Part shown: piece by piece, positions 32,045-39,420 of the stretch
How the letters are laid out: each line of letters starts with the position of its first letter
Position numbering within the stretch: position 1 is the first letter of the stretch
From: Rhizobium sp. Q54
Lineage (GTDB): Bacteria > Pseudomonadota > Alphaproteobacteria > UBA2966 > CAIVPW01
DNA: 56,522 bases
Direction: 5' to 3'
Assembly: GCA_945947575.1 (NCBI GenBank)
Contig: CAMEYM010000020.1
Location: 1 to 56,522, forward strand
Translations under genes and position numbers: made by a program
Notes under the pieces: model-generated
Told to the model about the DNA's origin: nothing
Database searches by the model: none
What the model saw: the letters and a program-made list of their open reading frames with translations, nothing else

Positions 32045-33040
32045 GTGCGACCCCCCATCCGCTCGCTGCCGCTCGCGACTTCCCCCGCAAGGGGGGAAGT
32101 GACTCTGGTTCGAGTCCTCCTTCTTGCACTTGCGCTCACCTTTTCGAGCGGGCCTGCGCTGGCATTGGAGAAACTCACCGTGATGCTGGATTGGTTCGTC
32201 AATCCGGACCATGGGCCGATCATCGTGGCGCAGCAGATGGGGTACTTCGCGGCCGCGGGGCTCGAGGTGACGATCATCGCGCCGTCGGACGCCAACGATC
32301 CGCCCAAGCTGGTGGCGGCGGGACGCGCGGACCTGGCGATCTCGTATCAGCCGCAGCTGTACCTGCTGGTGGCGGAAGGACTGCCGCTCAAGCGCGTCGG
32401 CACCCTGGTGGCGACGCCGCTCAACTCGCTGGTCGTGCTGGCGGACGGGCCGATCAAGAGCATCGCCGACCTGAAGGGCAAGCGCATCGGCTTCTCGGTG
32501 GCGGGCTTCGAGGAGACGATGCTGAGCGCGATGCTGAAGAAGCACGGCCTGACCCTGCGCGACGTGCAGCTGGTGAACGTGAATTTTGCCCTCACCGCGG
32601 CGATGCTGTCGGGCCAAGTGCAGGGCGTGATCGGGGCGTTCCGCAACTTCGAGCTGACGGAGCTGGAGCAGCTTGGCAAGGCCGGGCGCGCGTTCCTGCC
32701 CGAGGAGCACGGCGTGCCGGCGTACGACGAGCTGATCGTGGTGGCGCACAAGGACAAGACCAACGACCCGCGCATCCGCGCGTTCCTGAACGCCATCGAG
32801 CTCGGCGTGCAGTACATGCACAACCACCCGAACGAGGCGTGGGCCGCGTTCGTGCGCCACGACCGCGACCTCGACGACGCGCTGAACAAGCGCGCCTGGG
32901 CCGACACCCTGCCCCGCTTCGCCCATTCGCCGGCGGCGTTCGACCGCGCGCGCTATGAACGCTTCGCCCAGTTCCTGGTGCAGGAGGGCCTGATCAAGCA
33001 GGCGCTGCCGGTGGAGCAATACGCCGTCGAGGTGCGCTGA
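32045..33040 (+). CDS. thiY: HMP (pyrimidine) ABC transporter substrate-binding protein, ThiY-like
   Basis: The mature part begins after a signal (VLLLALALTFSSGPALA) and shows the NMT1/THI5-like fold: LDWFVNPDHGPIIVAQQMGYF near residue 47 (split here), AISYQPQLYLLV, and IGAFRNFELTEL. Under the TPP riboswitch operon it should bind hydroxymethylpyrimidine. The GTG at 32045 follows TAGGAG. A second GTG at 32099 gives a cleaner signal and lies within a short palindromic repeat. Confidence 0.85.
   Translation: MRPPIRSLPLATSPARGEVTLVRVLLLALALTFSSGPALALEKLTVMLDWFVNPDHGPIIVAQQMGYFAAAGLEVTIIAPSDANDPPKLVAAGRADLAISYQPQLYLLVAEGLPLKRVGTLVATPLNSLVVLADGPIKSIADLKGKRIGFSVAGFEETMLSAMLKKHGLTLRDVQLVNVNFALTAAMLSGQVQGVIGAFRNFELTELEQLGKAGRAFLPEEHGVPAYDELIVVAHKDKTNDPRIRAFLNAIELGVQYMHNHPNEAWAAFVRHDRDLDDALNKRAWADTLPRFAHSPAAFDRARYERFAQFLVQEGLIKQALPVEQYAVEVR
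32078..32100. repeat. Palindromic repeat inside the 5' end of the thiY frame
   Basis: ACTTCCCCC, a 5-base loop and GGGGGAAGT form a perfect 9-bp hairpin. It belongs to the dispersed CTTCCCC/GGGGAAG repeat family. It overlaps the alternative start GTG at 32099, so its insertion may have changed the N-terminus of the binding protein. Confidence 0.55.
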
Positions 33041-33369
33041 GGCGCGGCGTGCCGCTCTAGGAGTTGTGGCGCTCGCCAGAAGTATGGGCGATGTATGGCG
33101 GCGTTTTCTAGATGTAGTGGGCTGAGTCGCGCGCTGTTCGAGGGAGCGCGCGGCGATCACCGGGCGAGATCGCGCGCGTTCGCGCAGGCGTGAGACAGCA
33201 AGTGTGGCGTGCGGGTCGCGGTCATCGTTCGGCTTCGCAGCGGGGTCGCGGCGTATGTAGGATGTGTGCGGGCGAGGTCAAGGCGGCGCACCTAGAATCG
33301 CACACCGATTCTCTTGCCCCTCACCCTACCCTCTCCCCGTACGGGGCGAGGGAATACAGGAGACGGGAC
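33041..33369. other. Intergenic stretch between thiY and the SDR gene
   Basis: No gene is supported here. The stretch contains short GC-rich inverted elements such as GCGCGCTG...GAGCGCGCG near 33132-33153. At about 33317-33353 lies another member of the CTCTCCCC/GGGG intergenic repeat family. It ends with the AGGAG site of the SDR gene. Confidence 0.5.
33317..33353. repeat. Intergenic CTCTCCCC/GGGGCGAG repeat element
   Basis: The element has the common CCCTCACCCTACCCTCTCCCC form followed by a GTAC centre and GGGGCGAGGG. It sits just before the ribosome-binding site of the SDR gene. Related elements occur at 2826, 16809 and 32078. Confidence 0.6.
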
Positions 33370-34455: not shown

Positions 34456-37400
34456 TCAAGCACCCGCCGCAGCTTGACCATCTTGCAGGGCGGGTACCGG
34501 CGGCGCATGACGCAGCTCAATGATGGGGCCGTCCCTCCAACGAAGTTCGCGCTTGAAACTGAAAACGAGGTTCCCGACTTGCTCATTGGTCTCTTCAAAA
34601 CTCAGACCAACGATGGAGCCAGATGCGCCTTGCTCGAACACAATCGATTCGAGTAGGTCCTCCCGCACCAACATTGAGCGACCCTCCAAGAAATCCGCGC
34701 CATAGATGTCAACGCCTTCGGCGGTTCCAAGGTAGAGCCCAGACCTAATCTCGCTGCGCTTGGGTGGTCGCTGGCTACGCGCAACGCCTGCAGGCCTTAG
34801 CCAAGCACGAATCCACGTCGGTTCATTCCAACCCGGCACTAAGAGAATCGGCGTACCGCCGAGGCGAACCCGATCTCCGTGTTGTCGCACACAGGCCCGG
34901 TAGTTAGCCTCATCCAAAACGTCAATCACTTCCCGCGGACGGTCCAAGAGGCTCCGCCACACGTCGTCGAGCGCTGCTCGCTCTATGATCTTGCTGACGG
35001 CCTCAAGGAAGTTCGATGCTTCGCTCGCCATGGGCGGCTCAATGAGCGCGCCTTTTGCCACCCCGGAAATGCGCTTTTCGGTTAACTCAGCATCCACCGG
35101 TTCGAAGAGCCAGCGACACCTCCGAAAGACATCGATTCCACCCGTCGGCGCGGCGAGGCGATCGGCGATGTGCACGCGTATTGCTTCCACCCGCCGGACG
35201 TCTACAGCAGAAGCTCGAAGGCGAGTCACGCGCTGCTCTTCGATCGCACTGACGGCACTCGTGACAATCGCGTGCAGCCGGGGCACGCGCTGCTCGACGT
35301 CCAGACCCCTGACAAGGGCACGGCCCCCTTTTCCGAAGTAGGGATGGTGGTCTTGCGTGAGCAATCCGATAAGGTGGTGGAGATCTTGGACGAGACTACG
35401 GAGCGAGAGGTCCCCGTCCGGCAGGATTCGAGTATCCGACGTCCACTTTGATACCGCAGCAACTGCTCCGTCGTCGCCTTCGTCAGGGAGCAACGCGATC
35501 ATGCATGCGGCCCACGGCAGCAAGAGGTCGTCGCGATTCGACTTCGTAGTCACCTCATAGGTGCGACCAGAGATGTGGTGAGGTGCCGCCACCCCATCGA
35601 GGGTACTGATGTGTCCATCAATCGTTGCGCCGTATCCCTCGTCGTCGTATCGCTGCCCGGCCATCAGCATGCGCACGACCCCTAGGAGCATGTCCTTGAA
35701 CACACCCGCGCGCGCGCCCCCTTGGCCTCTAAGGCCGAGGAGGCCGCGAACGACCGACGGACATGTCAACGACTCCTGTTGTCCCTCCGCATACCACGCG
35801 AGCAGGACCCCGGACGCAACCAAGGTCGCGTCTTGCCACGCGCTTTGCAGCGCCGCCCCGAACACGTCGGGCGGATCGAACGGGTACAGCGCAAAAGCCT
35901 CCGCTAGGCCTTCGTCATCGATCCACGCCCGGCTGAAGAACGCAGGAGTCAGGGGACGCTGGAGTCCGTCGATTCCGCCTTCCATGTCGAACTCAAAGAC
36001 CTTCAGCCAGCGCACCAAAGACTCGCGGTACATCTCGCTGCCAACGACGTCTTCATTTCGACAAGCGGCTGCCACCAGATAGGTGGTGTTTCTGAGGTGC
36101 CGGAGGAGATATGGCCAACTCTGGACGTAACGCTTCCACGCCTCGTCCCGTGCGACCTCCTTCCGCCGCCACAAATACATCTGACCGGCGAGCGTGCTAG
36201 CAGCCTCCCAACCACCGATGAATCCTCGCAACGCACGTTCGTAGCTTTCTTGGTCGCTGCCGGGCAGGTGCCCAGGAATATCCGGTTGCGAGCGCGGAAG
36301 CCGACGCTCGGTCACCCAGTTCTCCAGGCGGTGCACCATCATGTTGGCAAGGTCGAGCGGGGCGGCCGCGAGCTCTGATGGAAGGAACCGCGCACTTCGC
36401 GATAGCAGCCGAACGTGAACGTTCGACAGCGAAGAAACGAAACGTCCAGTTCGGGGCAGAGCCTCGACTGCGCGTTCAAAGATGCGGACGTACTCCTGAA
36501 TCCAGTCTCGGTACAGCGGACCCCAGTCCCCGAGTTGCGAAAAGTTTACTCTGTCACCGGCGGTATTGACCGTCGCGTACGAGTCGATCAAGAAACGATG
36601 GAACGACAACATTTCGTCGAGGGCCGACCCAAAGCTCGTTTCCGCTAGGCGCCCAACATGAGAAACAACTCGGTCGCCGAGTTCCTCGAGCATGTCTGAC
36701 GGGTCGGCAGGTTCGTTTGAGCGCGCGTCGCTTCGGAATCGGAAACAAATCCGAAGGACGTGGTGCTCAAACTTCGTCAGCGGCGCGCCTCCGTTCTGTC
36801 TGCAAACCACGCCATCGGGCGGGACTCGAAGGCCGAACTGAGGAGCGAACTGCAGCGCAGGCCCCGCGCGCGGAAATGTTTGATCGATTCCCCGTTCGAC
36901 ACTCCGCCGCCACCAACGACGGATGACCCAAACCAGCGGTCGCAGCCAGACGTCATGCAGGAGGTCGTTGGAATCTCGCGCCGTGGTGACCTCGGAAGTG
37001 CCCCAGTCCTCCATCGCCATCCCGAACATCAGTGACGGCTGTTCGACGTTTTCGTCATCCGTGACCAATCCGGTCTGCCTGCCGGCGTCCATGTAGTGAT
37101 GTTGCCCATACCGGCGCGCGATGTCTCCGAGCACCGCTGAGTTCGCCGCAAAACGCCGGCGCAGGATGGCACGCTCAGACGGTCGAATGAACGAAAGGCT
37201 CGTCCTCAGGAAGTTCCAGAGGGCCACGAGATTGGCAACAAGCCACACCGTCAGCAACGTCACGACCGCTTGTGGAAGCAGCTCCGTCGGGCTGAATCCA
37301 AGATGCACCACGACTGCCTCGGCAGGCCAAACCAACTGAAGGACAAGGACTAGTGAGAGGCCGATGGCGCTCGCCCCGACTCGGTAAGCCAACGATTGGT

Positions 37401-37773
37401 CGTAATAGACCTGGATATCCGACAGCGTGTTCGAGGTCTCGTCCCGTTGAACGAGGAGCGTCACTAGCGCGATCGCAATCGGGAAAACCAAGCCGATTAG
37501 CGTCGCCTGAGCTGCCAACATTGCCGCCACCAAGCTGCCGCTTTTTGAAGAACCTTCGTCTAAGGGCTCGAACCCACTTAGACCGGCTGCATCCGCCAGA
37601 AGGACCCCGAAGAAGACAGCAACAAGCGCGATGAATGCCTGCGGACGCAGAGACAATCGAACGAGACGCGGGAGGCCCGAATAGCGTTCCTCAACCAGCG
37701 CTGGGTTCTTACGTCGGTGCTCGCGGATTTCCGCGGCAACTTCGGCCCTCACGCTGCCGAGCAGCCCTTTCAA
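34456..37773 (-). CDS. Large uncharacterised membrane protein
   Basis: This 1105-residue protein has four transmembrane helices near its N-terminus (about 46-67, 83-110, 131-152 and 165-192). About 900 residues of soluble, mainly helical sequence follow, with many Trp and Arg clusters. I recognise no domain, no P-loop, protease or nuclease motif. Start is TTG 37773 behind CAGGAAATAGC, with a GTG at 37752 as alternative. GC is visibly lower than that of its neighbours and codon choices are less extreme, which suggests horizontal acquisition. A sensory, transport-like or defence-related role is only speculation. Confidence 0.75.
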   Translation of the reverse strand: MKGLLGSVRAEVAAEIREHRRKNPALVEERYSGLPRLVRLSLRPQAFIALVAVFFGVLLADAAGLSGFEPLDEGSSKSGSLVAAMLAAQATLIGLVFPIAIALVTLLVQRDETSNTLSDIQVYYDQSLAYRVGASAIGLSLVLVLQLVWPAEAVVVHLGFSPTELLPQAVVTLLTVWLVANLVALWNFLRTSLSFIRPSERAILRRRFAANSAVLGDIARRYGQHHYMDAGRQTGLVTDDENVEQPSLMFGMAMEDWGTSEVTTARDSNDLLHDVWLRPLVWVIRRWWRRSVERGIDQTFPRAGPALQFAPQFGLRVPPDGVVCRQNGGAPLTKFEHHVLRICFRFRSDARSNEPADPSDMLEELGDRVVSHVGRLAETSFGSALDEMLSFHRFLIDSYATVNTAGDRVNFSQLGDWGPLYRDWIQEYVRIFERAVEALPRTGRFVSSLSNVHVRLLSRSARFLPSELAAAPLDLANMMVHRLENWVTERRLPRSQPDIPGHLPGSDQESYERALRGFIGGWEAASTLAGQMYLWRRKEVARDEAWKRYVQSWPYLLRHLRNTTYLVAAACRNEDVVGSEMYRESLVRWLKVFEFDMEGGIDGLQRPLTPAFFSRAWIDDEGLAEAFALYPFDPPDVFGAALQSAWQDATLVASGVLLAWYAEGQQESLTCPSVVRGLLGLRGQGGARAGVFKDMLLGVVRMLMAGQRYDDEGYGATIDGHISTLDGVAAPHHISGRTYEVTTKSNRDDLLLPWAACMIALLPDEGDDGAVAAVSKWTSDTRILPDGDLSLRSLVQDLHHLIGLLTQDHHPYFGKGGRALVRGLDVEQRVPRLHAIVTSAVSAIEEQRVTRLRASAVDVRRVEAIRVHIADRLAAPTGGIDVFRRCRWLFEPVDAELTEKRISGVAKGALIEPPMASEASNFLEAVSKIIERAALDDVWRSLLDRPREVIDVLDEANYRACVRQHGDRVRLGGTPILLVPGWNEPTWIRAWLRPAGVARSQRPPKRSEIRSGLYLGTAEGVDIYGADFLEGRSMLVREDLLESIVFEQGASGSIVGLSFEETNEQVGNLVFSFKRELRWRDGPIIELRHAPPVPALQDGQAAAGA

Positions 37774-37902: not shown

Positions 37903-38100
37903 CTACAGCAGCTGTATCTCCGCCACCTGCGGGCCCTTGGGCCCGCGGCCGACGCGGACGCGGAGGGGTTGGCCGGGGAGCAGCTCTTCGATGCCGACGC
38001 GGCGCAGCGCTTTGATGTGGATGAAAACGTCGGGCGTGCCTTCGCCGCGGGTGACGAAGCCGTAGCCCTCTTCGACGTTGACCCACGTGGCGGTGGCGTC
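37903..38100 (-). pseudogene. Truncated 3' copy of the double cold-shock-domain gene
   Basis: From a stop at 37903 this segment runs back through [20 protein letters not shown] and the [19 protein letters not shown] end of a cold-shock domain. It is about 95% identical (roughly 10 differences in 193 bases) to the 3' part of the intact gene at 38709-38902. No start codon exists for it, as the frame runs back into the hicA stop. It must be a duplicated fragment. Confidence 0.88.
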
Positions 38101-38121
38101 GAGACGAACGTCAAAGCGGAG

Positions 38122-38364
38122 TCACGAGAACAGCCGCGAGCGAAGCTCATCCTCGTCCATTTCAAAATGCACGGCCACGTCGCGAACAATCGCCGCTACC
38201 GTGCCTACGCGGAGCGCCTTGTGCCTGGGTACCGTGATGTGATGAGTCCCGCGTGTCTCAGTCGTCAGCCGCACGTGGCTACCTGTTTGACGGGTTGCGC
38301 GGTAGCCGAACTGGGCGAGAGCGCGAACAAGGTCCTCGCCCCGGACATCCCGCGGCAGTCTCAC
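38122..38364 (-). CDS. hicA: HicA family toxin (mRNA interferase)
   Basis: The 80-residue protein matches HicA/YcfA: RLPRDVRGEDLVRALAQFGY at the N-terminus (a double-stranded RNA-binding fold), the catalytic His in RQTGSHVRL (about 29), then HHITVPRHKALRVGTVAAIVRD. HicA cleaves mRNAs. GTG 38364 overlaps the TGA of the upstream hicB (GTGA), a usual coupling. The stop comes just before the truncated cold-shock fragment. Confidence 0.88.
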   Translation of the reverse strand: MRLPRDVRGEDLVRALAQFGYRATRQTGSHVRLTTETRGTHHITVPRHKALRVGTVAAIVRDVAVHFEMDEDELRSRLFS

Positions 38365-38585
38365 GCAGAGATCACTTCGTCCCGGACAAAGTGCAACCGA
38401 ATGACCTTGGGTCCGGCGCCCTCGTCGAAATGCGCTGCGACTGCATCGCGCACCGCATTGCGCAACTCGTCGAGCGAGTCCGCCTCGGTGAAAATGGAGG
38501 CGCCGAGGGCGCGCGCGAGAAGGCCTCCTTCTGGCGCTTCCTCCACCAGAAAGACGACCTCGCTCTGCGGAAGGGCAGTATCCAT
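38361..38585 (-). CDS. hicB: HicB family antitoxin
   Basis: The 74-residue protein has the short HicB fold: VVFLVEEAPEGGLLARALG, IFTEADSLDELRNAVRDAV and the KVIRLHFVRDEV end. Short HicB proteins of this type have the partial RNase H fold but no separate DNA-binding domain. The order hicB then hicA, with overlapping stop and start, matches a reversed-order hicBA pair. Its start follows no strong ribosome-binding site. Neutralisation of HicA by complex formation is the expected role. Confidence 0.83.
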   Translation of the reverse strand: MDTALPQSEVVFLVEEAPEGGLLARALGASIFTEADSLDELRNAVRDAVAAHFDEGAGPKVIRLHFVRDEVISA

Positions 38586-38654: not shown

Positions 38655-38697
38655 GACAATGGATTGCTTCGTCGCTGCGCTCCTCGCAATGACGATG
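38655..38697. repeat. REP-type intergenic repeat (CEERSDEAI type)
   Basis: GGATTGCTTCGTCGCTGCGC...CTCGCAATGACG is the widely dispersed alphaproteobacterial element which read in one frame gives HCEERSDEAI. A related copy lies near 49641. Here it separates hicB from the intact cold-shock gene. Confidence 0.75.
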
Positions 38698-38708
38698 CGG
38701 TGAGGCGG

Positions 38709-39239
38709 CTACAGCAGCTGTATCTCCGCCACCTGCGGGCCCTTGGGACCGCGGCCGACGCGGACGCGCAGGGGTTGGCCGGGCAGCAACTCTTCGATGC
38801 CGACGCGGCGCAGCGCTTTGATGTGGATGAAGACGTCGGGGGTGCCTTCGCCGCGGGTGACGAAGCCGTAGCCCTTTTCGATGTTGAACCACTTGGCGGT
38901 GGCTTCGAAGAACTCGCCTTCGGCTTCAACGGAGGGGAATTCCGCCTCGCGCGTTGCACGCAATGGAACGGCGACGGCGGTCGTCGTGTCCACCGTTAGA
39001 ACACGTACCGCCTGAAGACCCTTTGGACCACGCACGGCCTCACACTTGACCGTCGCGCCCTGCTCTACCCCGTCGTGTCCGGCCTGCCTAAGCGCGGAGT
39101 GGTGAATGAAGACATCGCCCGGCATTCCGTCCGGCGTGATGAATCCGTACCCCTTTACCGCGTTAAACCACTTCACTTTACCAAGGATCTCGAACGCTTC
39201 TTGGCGGACATCGACGGAGCTCTCCTCCAGCATGCCCAT
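38709..39239 (-). CDS. Cold-shock protein with two cold-shock domains
   Basis: The 176-residue protein has two CSDs: the first (about 18-88) with [18 protein letters not shown] and [13 protein letters not shown], the second (about 112-176) with [18 protein letters not shown] and [11 protein letters not shown] Glu-rich linker joins them. Double-CSD proteins are typical of Alphaproteobacteria and bind single-stranded nucleic acid. ATG 39239 is chosen (a second ATG at 39233). Its 3' half is duplicated 800 bases downstream. Confidence 0.92.
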
Positions 39240-39420
39240 CTCTGGGCGCTCCGTTCTCCCTGGCCTACTCGCCCAACTAATCCCACCCCAGGGTGAAATG
39301 CGACTCTGACACGATTGGGGGGCGACCACAATCAGAGCGCGACTTTCTGAACACCCCGGTGTGGCGAGCGTGCATCATGGCGTGCGTGCGGAGCGCTTCG
39401 GTCGCGCGCTGGACTCGCCG

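Follow-up and report, generated by a model that had tools for sequence, protein, structure and literature searches.

A rare two-part membrane protein with a predicted HK97-like domain, linked to antiphage defence genes

A large, low-GC gene at a variable locus

The window (the whole 56,522-nt stretch of DNA that was analysed) carries on its minus strand an intact open reading frame (ORF) for a protein of 1105 amino acids, with a TTG start codon, an AGGAA-like site directly upstream and a possible alternative start (GTG) at codon 8. A preliminary description of the DNA had seen in it a single protein with four N-terminal transmembrane helices, lower in GC than its flanks and standing beside a toxin-antitoxin pair and a duplicated fragment. 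All of these features were confirmed. The four transmembrane segments are conserved among relatives, the toxin-antitoxin pair is HicAB (HicA by Pfam, HicB by position rather than by a Pfam match), and the fragment repeats 200 nt from the end of a cold-shock gene at 95% identity. The GC content of the ORF is 60.8%, against a genome mean of 68.1 ± 1.9% (z = -3.9) calculated from 102 same-length windows drawn from 17 stretches of 20 kb of the same genome. None of the 102 windows reaches a GC as low as this, and the GC3 of the ORF is also low (0.68 against a mean of 0.80 in the same windows). The features of the locus are as follows.

32045..33040, plus strand: substrate-binding-protein-like gene, one fixed flank of the variable locus
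34456..37773, minus strand: coding sequence of 1105 amino acids, fused A and B membrane protein with a C-terminal HK97-like domain (predicted)
34501..35214, minus strand: B module, predicted HK97-fold (capsid/encapsulin-like) domain, residues ~854-1091, from AlphaFold models and structure searches
35314..36708, minus strand: B module, helical region, residues ~356-820, from the AlphaFold model
36700..36732, minus strand: fusion junction, residues ~348-358, a stop/start overlap in relatives (ATGA, TTGA, 8 nt, 11 nt)
36724..37773, minus strand: A module, residues 1-350, four transmembrane helices with a small alpha/beta part in the cytosol; five relatives encode it as an ORF of its own
37903..38102, minus strand: 200-nt second copy of the 3' end of the cold-shock gene (95% identity to 38709-38908)
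38122..38364, minus strand: HicA toxin (PF07927, 2.6e-13), in the variable locus
38361..38585, minus strand: HicB-like antitoxin, by position and conservation with no Pfam match; also present in G002
38709..39257, minus strand: two-domain cold-shock protein gene, the other fixed flank

A DNA search of seven related genomes revealed differing gene content between the two flanks, so the locus is a variable integration site. The substrate-binding-protein-like and cold-shock genes lie side by side with nothing between them in G005, G006 and G007, which represent three related genera; the large gene is thus not in the same place in all relatives. The genus-mate G002 has kept an SDR gene, HicB and both flanks and carries a 405-amino acid gene in place of the large ORF. 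Other genes occupy the locus in G004, one of them with the look of a carbonic anhydrase gene, and on a G001 contig transporter and HicA-like genes lie close to the same flank. The absence of the gene from the equivalent place in relatives, its low GC and the patchiness of its family bear out the earlier proposal of an accessory island.

Several smaller features of the site were also recorded. The 405-amino acid gene of G002 (L046:4848-6062), which had no Pfam or PADLOC match, contains a PD-(D/E)XK-like motif by eye (QVGYDG...VEVKTTDTY), and the site looks like a hotspot. In the window, the two copies of the 200-nt direct repeat (37903-38102 and 38709-38908) bracket the HicAB pair, so the duplication probably arrived with the HicAB insertion. 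Two short dispersed repeats (38660-38706 and 33299-33352) have numerous further copies in this genome or in related ones.

The whole protein had no sequence-level match in Pfam, NCBIfam, PADLOC (E<=1), PHROGs or the PDB, and phage records and viral contigs yielded no relatives of the family. Within the class, 4 of the 385 genomes carry a member of the family, and within the phylum 3 of 398 (this genome included in each count); 1/229 genomes of another class and 2/196 of another order also have one, with further relatives on four plasmids and in two species genomes. The family is rare and patchy, with a prevalence of about 1% or below of the genomes sampled. Within the genus, one further copy was found, in G002; it is 24-34% identical and lies in a different genomic place, and the closest relatives of the window protein are those of a Kiloniellaceae metagenome-assembled genome (MAG; 39%) and G389. 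This combination of rarity, a distant copy in the genus and such nearest kin points to horizontal movement of the family. Low prevalence, gene-free flanks in G005-G007 and low GC are likewise the marks of a patchy, horizontally moved accessory gene. No earlier description was found in the libraries and open-access papers searched, a scope that excludes subscription journals and most preprints. The first suspicion that the gene encodes something undescribed was right.

A membrane module and a soluble module, split or fused

Relatives of the protein come in two forms. In G002, G389, Paracoccus, Rhizobium and the Kiloniellaceae MAG, two ORFs encode an A protein of ~350 amino acids with four transmembrane helices and a soluble B protein of ~760 amino acids. 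The ORFs overlap at residue ~350, by TTGA, ATGA, 8 nt, 11 nt and ATGA, respectively. The window protein and the copies of Megaera, Ciceribacter, G610, G709 and G1026 (n=6) are single ORFs. On an IQ-TREE tree, the split and fused states need about three changes, with well-supported branches alone forcing two, and the window protein clusters with the split forms (two inner branches of the tree are weak and some end branches are long). The window protein is a natural fusion of A and B. The interchange of split and fused forms across the tree indicates that A and B are probably parts of one complex, and translational coupling together with repeated fusion is strong evidence that they act together. 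We rejected a frameshift artefact as the source of the two-ORF relatives, which have clean stop/start overlaps in the same place in five lineages. Programmed frameshifting between A and B is less likely because B has its own start codon and, in the Rhizobium copy, a strong AGGAG-like site as well.

The transmembrane segments of A (residues ~47-65, 90-108, 137-155 and 165-183) are hydrophobic, and the placement of positive charges suggests an N-in/C-in topology with both ends in the cytoplasm. Neither a catalytic site nor a known pore motif was found in the A part. A Bradyrhizobium plasmid (L010:7842-8918) carries the A part alone, with an early end (359 amino acids), and is perhaps a decayed copy.

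A predicted HK97 fold in the C-terminal third

The AlphaFold model of the whole protein (mean pLDDT 78.8, pTM 0.69, from a shallow alignment of 13 rows) has a small alpha/beta part in addition to the four transmembrane helices, then a long helical region, with a mixed domain at the C terminus. The C-terminal domain was also modelled alone (pLDDT 82.3, pTM 0.72, from a shallow alignment of 9 rows). The models divide the protein into three modules: a membrane anchor, the helical region and, at residues ~854-1091, a C-terminal HK97 fold. With VIA-align, residues 854-1091 of the full-length model matched encapsulins and phage capsids, with Z-scores up to 12.2 (4.5 A over 211 residues, for encapsulins). 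All 50 of the top 50 Foldseek matches of the isolated domain in the PDB were HK97-fold proteins, either phage capsid proteins or encapsulins (best E 9.3e-7, probability 1.00). The VIA matches of the isolated domain included the Thermotoga maritima encapsulin (Z 12.0, 4.6 A over 201 residues), the Pyrococcus furiosus VLP (Z 11.9, 3.4 A over 193), the T5 prohead (Z 11.8, 3.4 A over 215), lambda gpE (Z 11.0, 4.2 A over 223) and HK97 gp5 (Z 10.4, 4.0 A over 187). Among the named matches in the BFVD viral library, most were capsid or head proteins, with a best E of 7.2e-7. TM-scores were moderate, at about 0.3-0.5 for most structural matches of the domain. Full-length Foldseek matches to the exportin CRM1 were set aside as a likeness of helical repeats only (TM 0.08-0.11).

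The order of HK97 elements is complete in the model, with E-loop strands (887-906), a spine helix (922-943), A-domain helices and strands and a terminal sheet. The E-loop, long spine helix, A-domain and P-domain sheet of an HK97 fold are thus all present, in the predicted structure only. The prediction that residues ~854-1091 adopt this fold is well supported. The preliminary description had recognised no domain in the protein, which holds for the sequence but not for the predicted structure, where the C-terminal third has a recognisable fold. At the sequence level, the domain matched no capsid family in Pfam at E<=10, and PDB profile searches retrieved no capsid protein. Profile-profile comparison (hhalign) with 18 members of PF05065 gave probabilities of 1.3-1.8%, against 0.1% for a negative control. 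The fold is therefore present by prediction, and membership of a known capsid family is not established by sequence.

One relative, in G065 (781 amino acids, L022:9546-11891), is similar to the membrane part (E 1.5e-43), has a weak match to the helical region and ends before the HK97 domain. For this reason, the domain looks like a detachable module added to a membrane and helical core. Phage-like genes apparently lie near this relative (by eye).

The predicted fold is what the family shares with the HK97-fold major capsid proteins (PF05065, lambda gpE, T5, T4 gp24). It differs from them in having no detectable sequence similarity, in being joined, by fusion or coupling, to a membrane module and a ~460-amino acid helical region, and in lying outside a virion gene cluster, none of which was found beside members that carry the HK97 domain. 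Encapsulins (Families 1-4) are cell-encoded HK97-fold proteins, as predicted here, and are among the best matches of the domain (Z ~12), but their hallmark is a dedicated cargo in a conserved operon (PMC8346489). The present family has instead a membrane anchor, a large helical extension, variable defence neighbourhoods and no conserved cargo gene.

Antiphage neighbours and possible roles

Known or candidate antiphage genes occur at 7 of the 10 loci with readable neighbourhoods and in none of eight random windows (Fisher p 0.004), a small sample in which the neighbours were picked for scanning. The controls were 16-kb windows, all chromosomal, from four of these genomes, and their 116 proteins matched only housekeeping-like models (QueC, mad2/8, QatD, E1-E2). 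The Rhizobium locus has Avs3a (E 5.6e-123), and the Ciceribacter locus has GajB of the Gabija system (2.9e-250) and an LmuA-like protein of STAND size. Type I restriction-modification, FRG and DUF3883 genes adjoin TniB/TniQ genes in Paracoccus. The remaining loci carry a fused PtuA/PtuB-like gene of the Septu type and Mrr (G610), Vsr and a C5 methylase (G1026), HEC-03A/B (G709) and AbiJ (Megaera). No recognised antiphage system lies beside the gene in the window, where HicAB is a toxin-antitoxin pair only, or in G002 and G389. Neighbours differ from locus to locus and none is conserved, including any cargo-like gene of the kind that encapsulins have.

The link between the family and antiphage defence genes is well supported. 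Because the rare relatives mostly adjoin antiviral genes, the protein is probably an undescribed defence protein, one that uses a look-alike of a coat protein against phages. A defence role, which the preliminary description had called speculation, has thereby gained neighbourhood evidence. None of the catalogued defence models (PADLOC, E<=1) matched the protein. The family resembles Zorya (ZorA/ZorB) and other membrane defence systems in having an inner-membrane part and a large cytosolic part and in residing in defence islands, but it lacks a PADLOC match to ZorA or any other model and a MotA-type Pfam domain.

Our tentative preference is for a two-part membrane antiphage protein whose HK97-like domain engages capsid protein or procapsids and then either triggers A or jams assembly. 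The A module (residues 1-350) would span the inner membrane, its two ends facing the cytoplasm, and be followed by B with its helical region and putative capsid mimic. Phage SPP1 procapsids start at the inner side of the membrane (PMC13212656). A tethered domain facing the cytosol would be at the site of procapsid growth and could attach to capsid subunits or to the edges of the lattice, so that during infection it would meet newly made capsid protein or a procapsid lattice on the inner face of the membrane. Such binding could cluster or bend A/B complexes, and clustered A might damage the membrane and cause abortive infection; binding may also jam capsid assembly. The narrower proposal, that a capsid fold has been turned into an immune receptor whose membrane-tethered look-alike engages phage capsid or procapsid and triggers a membrane effector, is possible but doubtful. 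It has precedents for the trigger. Phage major capsid proteins directly activate CapRel (PMC9712102), and Sau-Thoeris is directly triggered by the phage major capsid protein, sensed in its hexameric form (PMC11312562). The likeness to these systems holds only if capsid protein is the trigger, which we infer here along with the role of A as effector. Both differ from the present family in binding the capsid through non-capsid domains and in having known enzymatic effectors, and they are unrelated to it in sequence.

Cells are known to contain capsid folds as viral coats and as the shells of encapsulins. If the preferred reading is true, the presence of such a fold in a membrane protein next to antiviral genes would add a third use, and it would suggest that bacteria can identify a virus through mimicry of its coat. 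A and B would then be a pair of genes open to direct testing, and would represent a new class of defence directed at the capsid.

The main rival to this reading is a pure assembly poison, in which the tethered domain is built into assemblies of phage capsid subunits, so that procapsid formation is blocked or goes astray without killing, A being only an anchor. The predicted fold and the nucleation of SPP1 procapsids at the membrane (PMC13212656) would both suit such a poison. Co-assembly usually needs a close sequence match, though, and none to any phage capsid was found. The helical region, N-terminal to the HK97 domain, is on the same side as the scaffold (delta) domain of many phage capsid proteins, again as a poison might have it. 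But the G065 relative lacks the HK97 domain while retaining A and the helical region, which implies that the remaining part has a role of its own, and we consider a pure poison unlikely. The same relative bears on another reading, in which pentamers or hexamers of the HK97-like domain, formed by self-assembly, are only an oligomerisation platform and something else triggers defence. Rings of 5- and 6-fold symmetry are common among HK97-fold proteins (PMC8346489) and the defence neighbours agree with such a platform, but oligomerisation through the domain is not always needed if G065 does without it, and this reading seems to us just as improbable as the poison.

A role outside defence, in metabolism or stress, as an encapsulin-like compartment or scaffold that is bound to the membrane and carried on accessory islands, appears decidedly unlikely. 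Encapsulins are among the best structural neighbours and the G389 and G002 copies lie among metabolic genes; against this, no cargo-like neighbour is conserved across loci, defence genes make up most of the neighbours, and an N-terminal membrane anchor would be ill-suited to a closed shell. Least probable of all, and very much so, is that the HK97 match is an artefact of AlphaFold or the structural searches and the C-terminal domain has another alpha/beta fold. The moderate TM-scores and the lack of sequence-level support would fit an artefact, but two models from separate inputs agree, the PDB matches are uniformly HK97-fold proteins and the order of HK97 elements is complete.

Beside the B gene of Rhizobium, near Avs3a, is a gene for a 1461-amino acid STAND-like protein (L015:12624-17009) with no Pfam or PADLOC match, possibly an undescribed defence gene. 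Upstream of the G610 copy, two overlapping genes (L023:4154-7074), one with DUF5677 and the other of no known family, may form a system of their own.
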